From: Tissierellia bacterium
GTDB taxonomy: Bacteria; Bacillota; Clostridia; Tissierellales; Peptoniphilaceae
DNA length: 64,000 bases
Assembly (NCBI GenBank): GCA_030529425.1
Contig: JAUMWX010000005.1
Span: 1-64,000, forward strand
Direction: 5' to 3'
Shown here: positions 25,340-53,362 of the stretch, in pieces
How positions within the stretch are numbered: the stretch's first letter is position 1
Layout of the letters: each line of letters opens with the position of its first letter
Notes under the pieces: model-generated
Database searches by the model: none
Told to the model about the DNA's origin: nothing
What the model saw: only the letters and a program-made list of their open reading frames with translations
Position numbers and translations under genes: made by a program

Positions 25340-25376
25340 AAAAAAGGATGATCGGAATATATCCGATACATCCTCT
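25340..25376 (-). terminator. Terminator of the purine permease gene
   Basis: Read on the minus strand, AGGATGTATCGGA..TTCCGATCATCCT is followed by TTTTTATA. Confidence 0.8.
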
Positions 25377-25382
25377 AATTTT

Positions 25383-26684
25383 TTATAGCGGTAAAAATAT
25401 ATATCTAACTAAGAATATAAGTGATAATACAAGTACCAACGGAGATACATCCTTAAATTTACCTGTTCCCAATTTTAATATTGTGTATGAAATCATACCG
25501 AAAACAATACCTTCAGCTATCGAGAATGCAAAAGGCATCATAATGATAGTTAGGAAAGACGGAATTGCAACGGTAAAATCGTCCCATTCGATATTTTTAA
25601 CCGGGGACATCATAAATAAACCGACAATTACCAATGCCGGTGCGGTTGCTGATGCAGGCACTATAGCAAATAATGGGGCGAAAAATACTGCCAAGATGAA
25701 CAGAATACCTGTTGTAATTGCTGTCAAGCCTGTTCTTCCGCCTTCAGCAACTCCAGCTGAAGATTCAACATATGTGGTTACAGTTGAAGTACCAAGTAAA
25801 GCTCCTATAGTTGTACCTATTGCATCAGATAAAAGGGCCCTTTCAACTCTCGGAAGTTTTCCGTCCTTATCCAACATATCGGTTTTGGAAGCAACTCCAG
25901 CCAATGTGCCGACAGTGTCAAACATATCTACGAATAGAAATGTAAATAGAGCTATAAAGAAAGGTCCATTAAATATATTGCTTGGAAAATCCAATTTGAA
26001 TGCTACATTAGATAGACCTGTAGGCAATTGGAACAATTTGATATTTTCAACATTTGTTACCTCCATAGGAATACCTATAACAGTTGTTAAAACAATACCT
26101 ATCAAGATTGCGCCTCTTACATTTTTTGCAACGAGAATACCTGTCAAAATAATTCCTATAATTGCCAAAAGTGAGGTGTTTTGTGTTATTTTTCCTAATG
26201 TCAAAATGGTTCCTTCACCGTTGGTAACTATGCCGGAATTGTTCAAACCGATTAGGGCTATAAATAATCCTATGCCTACAGATACCGCATTTTTAAGATC
26301 GCGAGGTATTGAGTTAAAAATCAATTCTCTGACTTTTACAAATGAAAGAATAATGAATATGATACCTTCTAAAAAAATTAAAGCTAATGCCTGTTGCCAA
26401 GTGAAGTTATATTTTAAAACTACAACATAAGCAAAATAAGCATTAAGTCCCATTCCCGGTGCAAGTGCAAAAGGATATCTTGCGTATAATCCCATAAAAA
26501 TAGTGGAAATTGCAGCGGATAAAGCTGTAGCAATAAATACACCTTGGGGATCCATTCCGGCTTTTCCCAAGAATAGCGGATTTACAGCCAGGATATAAGC
26601 CATGGTCATAAAAGTGGTGATACCTGCCAAAATTTCAGTTTTAACAGATGTTTTGTTCTCCTTAAGTTTAAAAAACTTTTCCAA
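25383..26684 (-). CDS. NCS2-family purine permease (AzgA/PbuG-like)
   Basis: This membrane transporter of 433 aa has about 12 helices. Family marks are LAGITTFMTMAYILAVNP near the start, APGMGLNAYFAY, DMFDTVGTLAGVA and TYVESSAGVAEGGRTGLTA. These fit the hypoxanthine/guanine/adenine group of NCS2 (COG2252). A TTG start at 26684 with AGGAGG 7 nt upstream is preferred; the longer frame has no site. It is a single-gene unit between two terminators. No purine riboswitch was recognised upstream. Confidence 0.92.
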   Translation of the reverse strand: MEKFFKLKENKTSVKTEILAGITTFMTMAYILAVNPLFLGKAGMDPQGVFIATALSAAISTIFMGLYARYPFALAPGMGLNAYFAYVVVLKYNFTWQQALALIFLEGIIFIILSFVKVRELIFNSIPRDLKNAVSVGIGLFIALIGLNNSGIVTNGEGTILTLGKITQNTSLLAIIGIILTGILVAKNVRGAILIGIVLTTVIGIPMEVTNVENIKLFQLPTGLSNVAFKLDFPSNIFNGPFFIALFTFLFVDMFDTVGTLAGVASKTDMLDKDGKLPRVERALLSDAIGTTIGALLGTSTVTTYVESSAGVAEGGRTGLTAITTGILFILAVFFAPLFAIVPASATAPALVIVGLFMMSPVKNIEWDDFTVAIPSFLTIIMMPFAFSIAEGIVFGMISYTILKLGTGKFKDVSPLVLVLSLIFLVRYIFLPL

Positions 26685-26849
26685 AATAATTCCTCCTCTT
26701 ATATTTTGATATAAATATTTTATCAATATAAAAATCAATGTCAAATTAAAGAAAAAAGTTGGAAAAAATGTTTGAAAACCAACAAAAAAGTATTCGAAAA
26801 AGAAATAATATCGGACAAAGAGAATATATTAACAGTTATTTAAAATAAA

Positions 26850-47365: not shown

Positions 47366-47436
47366 AAAGATTCAGTTATGATTTATATTTAGAATACTTT
47401 AGTCTAAAAAGTTTTCAAGTATGAAAAATTAAAAAT

Positions 47437-47484
47437 AAAAATCCTCTTTACTAAACAAATGTAAAGAGGATTTTTATTTTTTTA
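47437..47484. terminator. Terminator after the Nudix gene
   Basis: AAAAATCCTCTTTAC pairs perfectly with GTAAAGAGGATTTTT, followed by ATTTTTTT. Confidence 0.92.
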
Positions 47485-47592
47485 AAAGAAAAAATTTATT
47501 TTTACTTGCAAATAATTTTTATATATTTCTATGTCAAAAATTACATGGCTCTCTATGGAAAAATCCAAATTTAATTTACGGGAGGGCAAAAT

Positions 47593-47949
47593 ATGAAATC
47601 CGAAGAGAAATATTCATGGAATTTTTCATCTAATAAATTCTGCGATAGATTTGTAGAATATGAGTTAGAAGGGGAGGGAGCAAACGAGGGGATAGAGTGT
47701 TTTAACGACATTTATAAGGAGTTATGTTATTTAATCGGATAGCAAAACATGAAGAAAATCTATGATCGATTTAGGGGAGTATCAGTTGAATTTCCTCAAA
47801 AACTTTATTCAAAGGAATATATCAGGAAATTTGTATACGAAAATAGAGTACAGATGCATCCAAAAGATATCGCTATGAAATTTGGTCTTACAGAGAGAAG
47901 GATTCGTCAAATTCTTCAAGAAATTAAGAAAAAAGAAGGAGAAATTTAG
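47593..47949 (+). pseudogene. Mor-family transcription activator interrupted by an in-frame TAG
   Basis: A single frame from ATG 47593 (GGAGGG 7 nt upstream) to the stop at 47949 codes for 118 residues, with one amber codon at 47740-47742. Before it the product ends NDIYKELCYLIG; after it, in frame, QNMKKIYDRFRGVSVEFPQKLYSKE and a helix-turn-helix AMKFGLTERRIRQILQEIKKK. The joined sequence has the layout of Mor/C-type activators of Mu-like phages and their Firmicutes relatives, in which the stop falls in the linker. An ATG at 47749 could restart translation of the 66-aa DNA-binding part, but it has no clear ribosome site. So this is a nonsense mutant, a restart pair, or a readthrough gene. 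Confidence 0.7.
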
Positions 47950-47950
47950 A

Positions 47951-48097
47951 ATGAAAAACAATTTAAAAAAATTATCTTTAATTTTATTATTATTTACACT
48001 TGTAATATCAGCGTGTTCAAATATTGAAAAATCTCAATCTTTGAAAGATAGAGAAAAAACTGAAGATAAAACTCAAGAAACACGAAAAAAACAGTGA
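47951..48097 (+). CDS. Very short lipoprotein
   Basis: This 48-aa product has a signal peptide with lipobox LVISAC (Cys about 22) followed by only 26 charged residues (SLKDREKTEDKTQETRKKQ). AAGGAG lies 9 nt upstream and the gene is 1 nt behind the Mor-like frame. The mature part is too short for a fold; it may be a truncated lipoprotein or a secreted lipopeptide. Confidence 0.55.
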   Translation: MKNNLKKLSLILLLFTLVISACSNIEKSQSLKDREKTEDKTQETRKKQ

Positions 48098-48098
48098 T

Positions 48099-48146
48099 CC
48101 TACTTAAAGATTATAAAAAAACTCTTAAGTAGGGTTCTTTTTATAT
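48099..48146 (+). terminator. Terminator after the short lipoprotein
   Basis: CCTACTTAA pairs with TTAAGTAGG, followed by GTTCTTTTTATAT. Confidence 0.85.
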
Positions 48147-48235: not shown

Positions 48236-48919
48236 ATGAAAAAGATATTATTGATTGAAGACGACAAATCTTTGAGTATCGGATTGGTATATTATTTCAA
48301 CAAAGAAGATTTTTTTGTTAAACATGTTGTAAATATTGCAGATGCGAGGGTTGCATTTGAGAATGACGAGTTTGATATTGTATTATTGGATGTGACACTT
48401 CCTGACGGAGAAGGATTCAGTTTTGGTGAGGAAATAAGAAAAAAATCAAATATTCCGATAATTTTTTTGACGGCAAAAGATGAGGAATCTGATATTTTGA
48501 AGGGGTTTGAAGTGGGCGGTGACGATTATATTACCAAGCCTTTCAGCCTGAAAGAACTTTATGCAAGGATAAAGTCTTTGCTGAAAAGATCTTCCACAAA
48601 CAATGTCATAATAAGAAAATCCGGGGAAATAACGGTTGATATTCAGGCTATAAAAGTCTATAAAGGAGAAAAGATTGTTGATTTGACCAGCTCGGAATAT
48701 AAGCTTTTAAATTATTTTATGGACAATTATAATATAGCGCTGTCAAGAGAAAAAATTCTTGAATTTTTATGGGATTCCGATGCGAATTTTTCAGCATATT
48801 CAACGATATCGGTATACATAAACAGACTTAGGGAGAAAATAGAGGACAATCCCGGTGAACCGAAATATATCCTTACCAAAAGAAGCGTGGGCTATATTTG
48901 GGGCGTGGAGGTTCAGTAA
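48236..48919 (+). CDS. OmpR-family response regulator
   Basis: This 227-aa protein has a receiver domain (about 2-115) with the acidic pair EDD, phospho-acceptor Asp in VLLDVTLPDGEG and Lys in ITKPFSLKEL. A winged-helix output domain (about 130-225) contains TSSEYKLLNYFMDN and RSVGYIWGVEV. It forms a system with the kinase that starts at its stop codon (TAATG) and is followed by an ABC module. It likely senses cell-envelope-active compounds, by analogy with Bce/VirR systems. Confidence 0.93.
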   Translation: MKKILLIEDDKSLSIGLVYYFNKEDFFVKHVVNIADARVAFENDEFDIVLLDVTLPDGEGFSFGEEIRKKSNIPIIFLTAKDEESDILKGFEVGGDDYITKPFSLKELYARIKSLLKRSSTNNVIIRKSGEITVDIQAIKVYKGEKIVDLTSSEYKLLNYFMDNYNIALSREKILEFLWDSDANFSAYSTISVYINRLREKIEDNPGEPKYILTKRSVGYIWGVEVQ

Positions 48920-50112
48920 TGTTTTTACTTAAGGGGAAAAATTACCTTAGGATTGTCTTGTTAAATATCGTTTTGATAATTGTGATGACCTTTCTTGTGT
49001 CATATGAAATTGATAATAGAGTTTTGAAAAACAGGAAAGAAATAGAAAAGAATTTACTAAGAAAAGTAATTACAACAAAATCTCTTGAGGGATTGGAAAA
49101 CGATATTGAAAAGGCTTTGAATGACCATGATTTAGAAGAACTGCTGGCGAAAACGGAGCAGTTGAATGCCGGAAAAGTCAAAAAATCAATATTAAGAGTA
49201 AAAGTACTAAAGACATTTACTTTGGTTTTTACGGTTGTAATATTTATTTACATTTTGAACTATATATTTATAAGATTGGCGCAAAAAAAATATATTAAAT
49301 CGATAGATAAATACATTGATTCATTGCAAGGATACAAATTTGATTATGCATTGCCTGAAAAGGACGGTTCCATTATATCAAAGCTGAACAACAGATTTAA
49401 TAAGTTGGGAATATCCATAAAGCGAAATCACTATGGTATTGAACAGGAAAATGAGAGAATAAAAACCATTTTAGCGGATATATCACATCAGATAAAAACG
49501 CCTTTGGCGGCACTTTCAATGTATAACGAAATATTGATAGATTCCCAAATAGATGAAAATCAGAGTGAGTTTTTGGACCTAAGTCAGAAACAAATAAGCA
49601 GACTTAAATGGCTTATAGAATCTCTGTTAAAAATTTCAAGACTTGATTCAAATATGATTAAAATGAATAAAGACGAGTTCATAATATCGGAGCTTTCCTA
49701 TAACTTTGATAAAGTTTTTATTAATAAACTGAAGGACTCAAACTTGAAAATTTTAATAAGGGGATCGGTCGATGAAAAAGTAAATCTTGATTACGATTGG
49801 ACCAGAGAGGCTCTGCTTAATTTAGTGAAGAATGCGACAGAGCATGCAAAACCCAATTCTGAGATAATTATAGATTATTATGTAAATATTCAAATGATAA
49901 AAATTGATGTTATAAACGAAGGAAAAAATATAAGTTCCGAAGAGTTGACCAAGGTATTCAGCAGATTCTATAAAACAAAAGACAATAAAAATCCTGAATC
50001 TGTGGGGATAGGTTTAAATCTTTCGAAGAAAATAGTTGAACTTCAAGGAGGAACCATTTCAATCGAGAATATTGAAGGTGGGGTAAAGTTCAGCCTGATA
50101 TTTTTGAAATAA
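48919..50112 (+). CDS. Sensor histidine kinase
   Basis: This 397-aa protein has two membrane helices (about 8-28 and 98-118) enclosing an extracellular part of about 70 charged residues, then the phospho-His ISHQIKTPLAALSM (about 197) and the ATPase with LLNLVKNATEHA (N box) and SVGIGLNLSKKIVELQGG. The start at 48919 overlaps the regulator by 1 nt. A GTGGAGG lies inside the end of the regulator gene. The signal is unknown. Confidence 0.92.
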   Translation: MFLLKGKNYLRIVLLNIVLIIVMTFLVSYEIDNRVLKNRKEIEKNLLRKVITTKSLEGLENDIEKALNDHDLEELLAKTEQLNAGKVKKSILRVKVLKTFTLVFTVVIFIYILNYIFIRLAQKKYIKSIDKYIDSLQGYKFDYALPEKDGSIISKLNNRFNKLGISIKRNHYGIEQENERIKTILADISHQIKTPLAALSMYNEILIDSQIDENQSEFLDLSQKQISRLKWLIESLLKISRLDSNMIKMNKDEFIISELSYNFDKVFINKLKDSNLKILIRGSVDEKVNLDYDWTREALLNLVKNATEHAKPNSEIIIDYYVNIQMIKIDVINEGKNISSEELTKVFSRFYKTKDNKNPESVGIGLNLSKKIVELQGGTISIENIEGGVKFSLIFLK

Positions 50113-50137
50113 AGAAGCGTAAAGCTTCTTTTTTTAT
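50112..50137 (+). terminator. Small terminator between kinase and ABC genes
   Basis: AAGAAGC..GCTTCTT stem with loop GTAAA and a T run. It may reduce read-through to the ABC genes, which may then have an own regulated promoter. Confidence 0.75.
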
Positions 50138-50214
50138 ATCTTTTACAATATTGTAATGTTAAAGTAATATTAATGTTAATAAGCTTTGATAAACTAAAAA
50201 AAACGGAGGGTGAA

Positions 50215-50898
50215 ATGGAAATAATAAGAGCAGTAAATTTAAATAAAACTTATGGGAAGAATAATACTTTGGTACATGCTGTCAATGATGTAAATTTGAG
50301 AATATTTGAGGGAGAATTTGTTGCAATTGTGGGTGCAAGCGGTGGAGGAAAGTCTACATTATTGCATTTGCTGGGAGGCTTGGATGAACCTACATCCGGA
50401 AAGGTTTATATAAACGGAAAAGATATATATGCCATGGGAAATGATCAAAGGGCAATATTTAGGCGTAGAAATATCGGGTTCATATTTCAATTTTTTAACT
50501 TGATACCCGTTTTGAATGTAAAGGAAAATATTGAACTTCCGGCAAGTTTGGACGGGGAGATACTTGAGGATAAAGCTGTAGATGAGTTGGCTCAACAGTT
50601 AGGATTGTCTCACAGATTAAACCATTATCCAAATCAACTTTCAGGAGGAGAACAACAAAGAGTTTCTATCGGGAGAGCATTGGCTTACAAGCCTTCAATC
50701 ATCATGGCTGATGAACCTACGGGGAATCTGGATAAAAAGAATTCTTTGGAGATTTTGAATTTGCTGAAACTGTTTTCCAATAAATACGGTATTACGGTGG
50801 TAATGATTACGCATGATCTTAATCTTGCCGCTTCAGCCGACAGAATTATAAAGATTGAAGACGGAAGAATTTTGGAGGAAAAAGATGAAAGTAATTAA
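50215..50898 (+). CDS. ABC transporter ATP-binding protein (MacB/BceA type)
   Basis: This 227-aa ATPase has Walker A GASGGGKST, Q-loop FQFFNLIP, signature LSGGEQQR, Walker B IIMADEPTG and the H-loop THD. It is of the 3.A.1.122/134 (MacB, LolD, BceA) class. The start at 50215 has GGAGGG 5 nt upstream. The permease start lies within its last codons. With the two-component system in front, a peptide or antibiotic response module is likely. Confidence 0.93.
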   Translation: MEIIRAVNLNKTYGKNNTLVHAVNDVNLRIFEGEFVAIVGASGGGKSTLLHLLGGLDEPTSGKVYINGKDIYAMGNDQRAIFRRRNIGFIFQFFNLIPVLNVKENIELPASLDGEILEDKAVDELAQQLGLSHRLNHYPNQLSGGEQQRVSIGRALAYKPSIIMADEPTGNLDKKNSLEILNLLKLFSNKYGITVVMITHDLNLAASADRIIKIEDGRILEEKDESN

Positions 50899-53362
50899 TA
50901 AAATGACCTTTAGATATATTCTAAAGAGCAAACTTAGGACATTACTTACTCTTTTGGGAATAATTATTTCAATCTCAATGATTACTTCAATCGGAAATAT
51001 TTTGGTTACATTGACATCATTTTTTAAGGAAGAAAGAATTGCTATTTCCGGTAAATATGATTTTGAAATAAAGGATATAAATAAAGATGACTTGGCAAAT
51101 ATTTTGGCTTACGAAAATCTTTCAGATTATTATGTGACCAAAAAGGATAAATCCATAAGAAATGTATATGAAAAAGGCGGACATAGTGATTTTTCATTCA
51201 TTGATATAATTGAGGGAGATGCGAGGTATTATAACGGTAATTTCTCTTTAGAAATAATTGAAGGTAGAAAGCCCGAAAATGAGGGAGAGGTTATCGTTCC
51301 GTATGCTTCAAAAGATATTATACCCGGATTTAATAAAATTGGTAATTCGGTTAAGTTTAATATTTACGATATAGATGAATCGATTTTTAAGGATGTATTT
51401 GAAACGGAAACGCCGAATGACTTTAAAGAAAAATATTTAGTTAATTCCAATCATGATGAAACCTTAAAAATTGTAGGATATTATAGTTCAAATGAGATTT
51501 ATAGATCATGGTTTTCGAAAGAAAATAATGCCGATGTGAGTTTTTTGAGGTTTAATATATATAAGTTTTCTAAAATAGCCGACGATAAATTTGATTTTAA
51601 AGGTTTTTTTAACGACTATGGTAACCTCGAAGAAAAAAGAGAGCAAGTCGAAAAGATTGTCGGTAAAAATGTCAAGTTGAATGATTACTACATCCAAACG
51701 AATGATTTCAGATATCATGATTTTGGAGAAATTATAAATGGATTTTTAACAATATTGTTGGTCATAATTTTGGTTGCAATAGTGGTTTTTATCTACAACA
51801 TTTTTACTACAAATTATGTCGAGAGAATTAGAGATTTAGGATTGCTGAAAGTTGTAGGATTTACAAATAAACAATTGTTTTCAATGGTGTGTTTGGATTC
51901 ATTATTTTATTTTCTGGTATCTATCCCGTTGGGATATTTATCCGGAGTGATAGCTATGAAAATAGTTTTTTCTTATATAAACAGTATTTTGGCGTCTAAT
52001 TTGGAGGGAATATATTATCTGATTGAGGCTAAGACGGATTCCATGATATTTACGGTTGCGGCTATTTTGGGATTCATAGTGATTTTTACATCAAATATTT
52101 TAGCTTCAAATTTTGTTTTCAGAAAAAGCCCTATCTCCGCACTTCAAGGCAATGTAGAAGATAATCGGAAGATAAAGATTGACAATAGAAAAAAGAGAAG
52201 GTTGACCAAAGCAATATTCGGATATGACGGTTTTTTGGCATTTAGAAATATAGACAGAAATAAAAAGAGATTTATAATGACAACCATATCCGTTTCGATG
52301 AGTATCATACTTTTCGTAGTGGTATCAAATTTTACTAAAACCTTTGAAAACGGACTTTTCAGGATTAAAGAAGATTCTGAAAAAATATCGGGATATATAC
52401 GAATTGAAAGCGAATCAAGAGATTCTCTGATGGAAGATTTAGATAAAATCAAGGGATTAAAAGTAAGGGATGAATTGAAATTTTATACGGTTGATAATAT
52501 AGTAAGAGTTCAGGATCTTCTTTCATCAAGAACCGGAATACTTGTTTTGAGTGATGACGAGTACAGGGAAAAGATTGATAAGGATATCGATAAAATCCAG
52601 GTATATTACGAAGAAACAGGAGAGTTTATAAAGGGAACGGGTGTATTGTCTTTGGCCGATAGGGTCGACACTGAAGCCGAGTCGGAATATGAAACAAAAA
52701 GGGCGATAAATGTGAGATTCAGCGACAGTGAAAATATTGAATTTAAAAACGACATATATGGAGGACTTCTAAAAATAATGATGAGTAAAAGCAAGTTTGA
52801 TGAAATCAAAATAGCAGATAAATCGTATTCCGTATTTTCGTTGCAAAGAGTTGGCGGGGATAAGAGATTAAAAGACCAATTAAACTTAATTAAGTTTAAC
52901 CATCCCAAAATGATTGTAGAAGCAAGTCCTTTGCCTACGATAAAAATAATGAAATTGTTTGTTTACGGATTTATAACGCTAATTGCATCAATAGGAGCTC
53001 TTAATATTATTAACTCCACTTATAATAATATACTGACCAGAAGAAGAGAATTGGCATTGATAAAAGCAATAGGAATCGAAGAAAAAAGATTGAGGAGAAT
53101 AATTCTTCTTGAGAGTATGATTTCCGCATTTATTTCATCAATACTCGCATTTATTTTTTCTCTATTATTCACATATTGGCAATATAGAGTTCAGGTCGAC
53201 GCTATACCGAAAGGAATTGTACAGATTTTAATAGGATCATATATATTCCCTATGGGCTATTGGGCAATGGGAGTTGCAATATCATTTGTTTTGATATATA
53301 TATCCGCCATTATTCCTTACAATAGAATGAGCAAAGATAATATTACTAATATACTGAAATAA
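50885..53362 (+). CDS. FtsX-like ABC transporter permease
   Basis: This 825-aa protein is a type VII (MacB-like) permease, with an N-terminal helix (LKSKLRTLLTLLGIIISISM), a large extracellular domain (about 45-285) and three helices (FLTILLVIILVAIVV..). A second set follows, with a helix at about 465 (RFIMTTISVSMSII), an extracellular domain of about 210 residues, and three C-terminal helices with FtsX motifs (RRELALIKAIGIEEKRLRRI). It overlaps the ATPase by 14 nt. Extracytoplasmic domains probably bind substrate or the kinase. Not a Bce permease of 10 helices, but related. Confidence 0.9.
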   Translation: MKVINKMTFRYILKSKLRTLLTLLGIIISISMITSIGNILVTLTSFFKEERIAISGKYDFEIKDINKDDLANILAYENLSDYYVTKKDKSIRNVYEKGGHSDFSFIDIIEGDARYYNGNFSLEIIEGRKPENEGEVIVPYASKDIIPGFNKIGNSVKFNIYDIDESIFKDVFETETPNDFKEKYLVNSNHDETLKIVGYYSSNEIYRSWFSKENNADVSFLRFNIYKFSKIADDKFDFKGFFNDYGNLEEKREQVEKIVGKNVKLNDYYIQTNDFRYHDFGEIINGFLTILLVIILVAIVVFIYNIFTTNYVERIRDLGLLKVVGFTNKQLFSMVCLDSLFYFLVSIPLGYLSGVIAMKIVFSYINSILASNLEGIYYLIEAKTDSMIFTVAAILGFIVIFTSNILASNFVFRKSPISALQGNVEDNRKIKIDNRKKRRLTKAIFGYDGFLAFRNIDRNKKRFIMTTISVSMSIILFVVVSNFTKTFENGLFRIKEDSEKISGYIRIESESRDSLMEDLDKIKGLKVRDELKFYTVDNIVRVQDLLSSRTGILVLSDDEYREKIDKDIDKIQVYYEETGEFIKGTGVLSLADRVDTEAESEYETKRAINVRFSDSENIEFKNDIYGGLLKIMMSKSKFDEIKIADKSYSVFSLQRVGGDKRLKDQLNLIKFNHPKMIVEASPLPTIKIMKLFVYGFITLIASIGALNIINSTYNNILTRRRELALIKAIGIEEKRLRRIILLESMISAFISSILAFIFSLLFTYWQYRVQVDAIPKGIVQILIGSYIFPMGYWAMGVAISFVLIYISAIIPYNRMSKDNITNILK

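Follow-up and report, generated by a model that had tools for sequence, protein, structure and literature searches.

We suggest that a small Mor-type gene in the 64,000-nt stretch of DNA analysed here (the window), which heads a two-gene unit, is a copy broken by a nonsense codon, and that it is young in that state, because the rest of its frame still looks intact; we put the probability of this reading at roughly 0.7. The gene would encode a small transcription activator and lead a unit whose other member is a short lipoprotein. The codon that opens the second predicted dimerisation helix is now TAG, and translation from 47593 stops after 49 residues, short of the DNA-binding part. The intact form would activate its own unit; the 49-aa product is probably inactive, and the unit may be silent or misregulated in this genome. 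The shortness of the lipoprotein could be a further mark of decay. The stop codon most likely shows nothing new about decoding and represents ordinary gene breakage, the cause of which may be a fresh mutation, a polymorphism or an error. The two-gene pattern is more interesting than the stop codon itself.

The frame at 47593-47949 translates into 49 codons, an internal TAG, 68 codons and a final TAG (MKSEEKYSW...ELCYLIG, TAG, QNMKKIYDRF...KKEGEI, TAG). The first-pass annotation had described the frame as open on both sides of the TAG at 47740-47742, with an ATG two codons past it, and translation confirms both points, the first ATG 3' of the internal stop being at 47749. A Mor family member would be expected to have an uninterrupted single coding frame for a dimeric activator, and it is this frame that the TAG at 47740-47742 breaks. 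In the same register, the opposite strand of 47593-47949 holds seven stops. The Shine-Dalgarno sequence ahead of the start at 47593 is strong (duplex energy -10.8 kcal/mol; median of the best start in sampled genes, -8.2). The features of the unit and its flanks are as follows.

47431-47481 (no strand assigned): imperfect palindrome separating the NUDIX and Mor-type genes, an 82% match to its own reverse complement and likely a terminator.
47580-47586 (+): Shine-Dalgarno sequence GGGAGGG of the Mor-type gene, from the sequence and the duplex energy given above.
47593-47742 (+): opening section of the Mor-type frame, made up of 49 codons plus the internal TAG, from translation, tblastn homology and alignment.
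47707-47736 (+): predicted dimerisation helix 1, residues 39-48, from the AlphaFold2 model.
47740-47742 (+): in-frame amber stop, residue 50, the first of predicted helix 2, in a column that varies among relatives.
47749-47949 (+): possible restart frame of 66 aa, with the remainder of helix 2, the linker and the helix-turn-helix; its Shine-Dalgarno is weak (-3.3 kcal/mol).
47812-47940 (+): predicted DNA-binding helices, residues 74-84, 90-97 and 101-116, from the model and from the Pfam Mor match of the after-stop half (18.2 bits).
47951-48097 (+): second gene of the unit, a 48-aa lipoprotein frame with a signal sequence, Cys22 and a charged tail, from the sequence.
48098-48145 (+): hairpin with a T-run that probably terminates the unit (-10 kcal/mol for the hairpin; z -1.73, with equal stability reached in 7 of 200 shuffles).

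The window product is predicted from its sequence to be a Mor-type, DNA-binding promoter activator. With the TAG read as X, it scored 21.6 bits against Pfam Mor (PF08765) over residues 40-115, under the curated cut-off of 24.9 bits; the half after the stop scored 18.2 bits alone, and the half before it had no match in the Pfam scan. All eight relatives tested exceeded the cut-off, the closest (L011) at 28.3 bits, and the window gene is the sole PF08765 match in its own genome. Homology to accepted members of the family runs along both the dimerisation and the DNA-binding parts. PHROG 836 (late transcriptional activator) is matched by the product at 4.9e-7, and tblastn aligned it to an annotated Mor-family gene on the Butyrivibrio plasmid pCY186 at 43% identity (E 9e-19); as this match spans residues 7-112, homology crosses the stop. 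All five residues that are invariant in 30 aligned sequences (Y41, G49, G62, P68 and A94) are kept in the window product. In line with the earlier statement, both sides of the stop match Mor-type activators. The column of the stop (residue 50) holds D, I, L, F, Y, S or M in relatives, with I, L, F and M the most frequent.

An AlphaFold2 model built on 27 sequences (mean pLDDT 78, pTM 0.54) places helices at residues 39-48, 50-60, 74-84, 90-97 and 101-116. The first two correspond to the helices that reportedly form the dimer in the Mu Mor structure (Kumaraswami 2004). The first-pass annotation had put the stop at the boundary between the dimerisation and DNA-binding parts; it lies instead within the dimerisation half, because residue 50 falls between the predicted helices 39-48 and 50-60. 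Fold comparison and sequence together weakly back the Mor layout of two dimerisation helices, an extended linker and a helix-turn-helix: a profile of 30 relatives found 1rr7 at E 0.046, Foldseek with the model ranked 1rr7 second at a weak E of 0.38, and 86 residues of the model could be superimposed on 9l0x_I (Z 5.8, rmsd 5.2). Weak or absent fold matches were not counted against any reading. PMC4287176 lists Kumaraswami 2004 among its references.

It was proposed earlier that the TAG could be a fresh nonsense mutation, a point of restart or a site of readthrough, and of these the nonsense mutation fits best. Readthrough, in which TAG would sometimes be read as an amino acid and yield a regulated amount of a 118-aa activator, appears very improbable. 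Recoding would be expected where TAG is not an ordinary stop or RF1 is missing; here, RF1 is present in the genome (517.7 bits, above the cut-off), and TAG is in ordinary use. The window and a further 20 stretches, each 20 kb long, served as a sample covering 464 kb of the 1.565 Mb; among its 381 non-overlapping ORFs with a length of 100 aa or more, the stop was TAG in 112, TAA in 205 and TGA in 64. Open frames of at least 50 codons beyond the stop were commoner after TAG (22 of 110 assessable genes) than after TAA (18 of 205) or TGA (1 of 63), which taken alone speaks for readthrough, as does the variable stop column, where several residues might be tolerated. However, in 17 of the 22 long extensions a strong Shine-Dalgarno marks a start no more than 25 codons in, and in the remaining five an ATG has a weaker site, so all 22 can be accounted for by a following gene that happens to share the frame. 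Termination at a TAG with C as the next base is often considered leaky. This context ends only 6 of the 112 TAG-ended sampled genes, a rarity that can be counted in favour of readthrough and that allows for a small measure of leaky termination. The RNA around and after the stop shows no folding beyond that of shuffled sequences (z -0.49 and 0.69). No CTA anticodon was among those read by ARAGORN; the draft shows 17 tRNA matches, an incomplete set, and a suppressor tRNA may lie outside it. With TAG an ordinary stop, RF1 present and no structure signal, we reject recoding or suppression of TAG. Separately, on the minus strand of L151, a gene from 11607 (179 aa) has a TAG between two copies of the repeat VGEVHQKDEVVK, followed by 56 further open codons; this may be a repeat region or one more gene interrupted by TAG.

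Restart, the remaining biological alternative, would have ribosomes that end at 47742 begin again at ATG 47749, 6 nt beyond the stop, giving a DNA-binding fragment that might act as a repressor or competitor. We consider it unlikely, even though the 66-codon frame has an intact helix-turn-helix. The Shine-Dalgarno of ATG 47749 is weak (-3.3 against -10.8 kcal/mol at the true start), and a site at least as strong is found at 33% of 2282 internal ATGs and at 93% of gene starts. Furthermore, the 66-aa product would be without the predicted helix 1 and without the invariant Y41 and G49. The 68 codons past the stop show no further damage, which fits a young break and is also what selection for a product of restart or readthrough would leave. 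Relatives offer some parallel: among 80 of them, five have an in-frame stop within the matched stretch, and in three of these five a possible start codon stands directly 3' of the stop (L061, TAA then Met; L076, TGA then Met; L092, TGA then Val). The Mor family does include stop-start arrangements, located in the leader region ahead of helix 1. However, all five stops lie upstream of helix 1 and none from helix 1 onward, so they set no precedent for its loss, and among the copies examined only the window copy has a stop after helix 1. A similarly small chance attaches to an artefact of sequencing, assembly or strain, in which the gene would usually be intact in the species and the base would be an error or a single-colony change; the genome is one draft in 34 contigs and the only one that its genus contains.

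Of the 104 loci that a contig scan with eight aligned class relatives turned up, 80 were kept; when the 68-aa second half served as the query instead, the contigs yielded no relative. Counting its own genome, the window protein had matches in 3 of 61 near genomes, 24 of 391 genomes of the class and 7 of 398 of the phylum; within the family, 6 of 130 genomes including its own matched at E 0.01, and four of the other five matches are weak (the near, family, class and phylum sets overlap). No match to the window protein better than the Butyrivibrio gene turned up in these 61, 130, 391 and 398 genomes. The Butyrivibrio protein found nothing over 35% in 51 genomes of another order. Viral contigs gave no match to this protein and none to a pattern in which the stop codon was left open. 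Several loci were rejected as precedents for an internal stop: the flagged stops of L023, L027 and L039 are natural ends, the stop of L015 and L018 lies just ahead of a GTG start after GGGGAGGG, and in L036/L061 a TAA lies just ahead of an ATG that GAGGTG precedes. Another Mor subfamily (L036/L061, L076 and L092 in their N-terminal region; L031, L039, L058-L067) carries a conserved leader, MDKxKDxGI, with a GAGGTG site ahead of a second start; in three loci a stop divides leader from Mor. The DNA of this leader is strongly conserved as well: after dereplication of the upstream stretches, its best word pairs recur in as many as 34 of 72. A shared upstream Mor-binding motif, for which a shuffle of two-base blocks served as control, was likewise rejected: the strongest word pairs sit in this coding leader and are therefore uninformative on binding sites.

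At the window, the lipoprotein frame begins 1 nt past the end of the Mor frame and has its own Shine-Dalgarno at 47937-47941 (-9.3 kcal/mol). The 48-aa lipoprotein matches lipoprotein families weakly, always below cut-off. The closest known counterpart is the Mor gene of Butyrivibrio proteoclasticus pCY186 (WP_013283162.1; L011:5007-5363), which likewise has a lipoprotein gene directly 3', with a 1-nt overlap; there, however, the Mor frame is intact and the lipoprotein is 263 aa long. Mu Mor and Mu C (PDB 1rr7 and 9l0x), the phage middle and late activators, match the window protein weakly in the comparisons given above and are very remote from it in sequence. Phage-type Mor genes from other Bacillota (L175, L178 and L179) belong to the same family and are matched by the window protein, but differ in having the linker type Y[FL]xKLD and a next frame that is short, with a hydrophobic stretch, and farther downstream in two of the three.

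With its lipoprotein frame at 1 nt, the window fits a pattern seen across Clostridia, which we define as a second frame on the same strand whose start lies between -30 and +60 nt relative to the Mor stop. Such a frame was near in 28 of 31 relatives of a first set, from which L007-L010 (weak matches) and L037 (no Mor frame) were left out. In a second set, reduced from 80 to 79 loci by omitting L077, where the sequence ends with nothing downstream, it was near in 64 of 79 loci, against 137 of 295 for control genes taken from these loci (Fisher p 1.7e-8), and it was both near and equipped with a membrane segment, a lipobox or two CxxC motifs in 43 of 79 compared to 43 of 295 controls (p 2.6e-12), p values that overstate the case because related loci are treated as independent. 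The two sets share twelve loci; gene starts were picked mechanically, and a handful of the neighbours (e.g. L080, L106 and L108) have the look of frames open by chance. BLAST clustering placed the 64 Mor proteins in one cluster and their neighbours in 40. These second genes are rich in lipoproteins, membrane proteins and zinc-ribbon proteins. Among 20 neighbours scanned with Pfam at E 0.001, matches were to GTPase/dynamin, AIM24, SPFH with zinc ribbons, SHOCT, DUF6591, TPR and beta-helix, and eight had no match. Partner lengths range from 42 to 750 aa and only 2 of 64 are as short as the 48 aa of the window, so the lipoprotein there may be truncated. A defence role of the partners was rejected: of nine given to PADLOC, only two GTPases match with any strength (LeoA/LeoBC).

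We tentatively propose, at somewhat less than even odds, that Clostridia harbour a broad range of two-gene units joining phage-type (Mor) activators of a single family to interchangeable, mostly envelope partners, that the activator switches on its own unit, that the units are exchanged as cassettes, and that the window copy is a cassette silenced by a nonsense codon. The envelope partners could comprise, with the same reserve, lipoproteins, small membrane proteins, zinc-ribbon, AIM24, SPFH and SHOCT proteins and GTPases. A family known mainly from phage middle and late activators heads small units with very diverse envelope proteins in Clostridia; should the activator govern the gene next to it, gut bacteria would possess a regulatory module for surface proteins that can be used again and again, and many unnamed small proteins would gain a testable function. 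The titles and abstract openings of open-access literature yielded no description of Mor-led units with envelope partners. Passages of two papers deal with Mor in a Mu-like prophage (PMC11318856) and with the SHOCT domain (PMC3581485), those of the latter leaving the Mor activator unmentioned.

No phage genes were recognised among the scanned neighbours in the window. At 25348-26430 (+), a 360-aa open frame without a Pfam match faces the gene of a 453-aa xanthine/uracil permease (25383-26744, -; PF00860) and is probably due to chance. Directly downstream of the Mor-led unit, Pfam matches at 48236-53362 identify a response regulator, a histidine kinase, an ABC ATPase and an FtsX-type permease, a set which we take to resemble peptide-antibiotic sensing and export systems.
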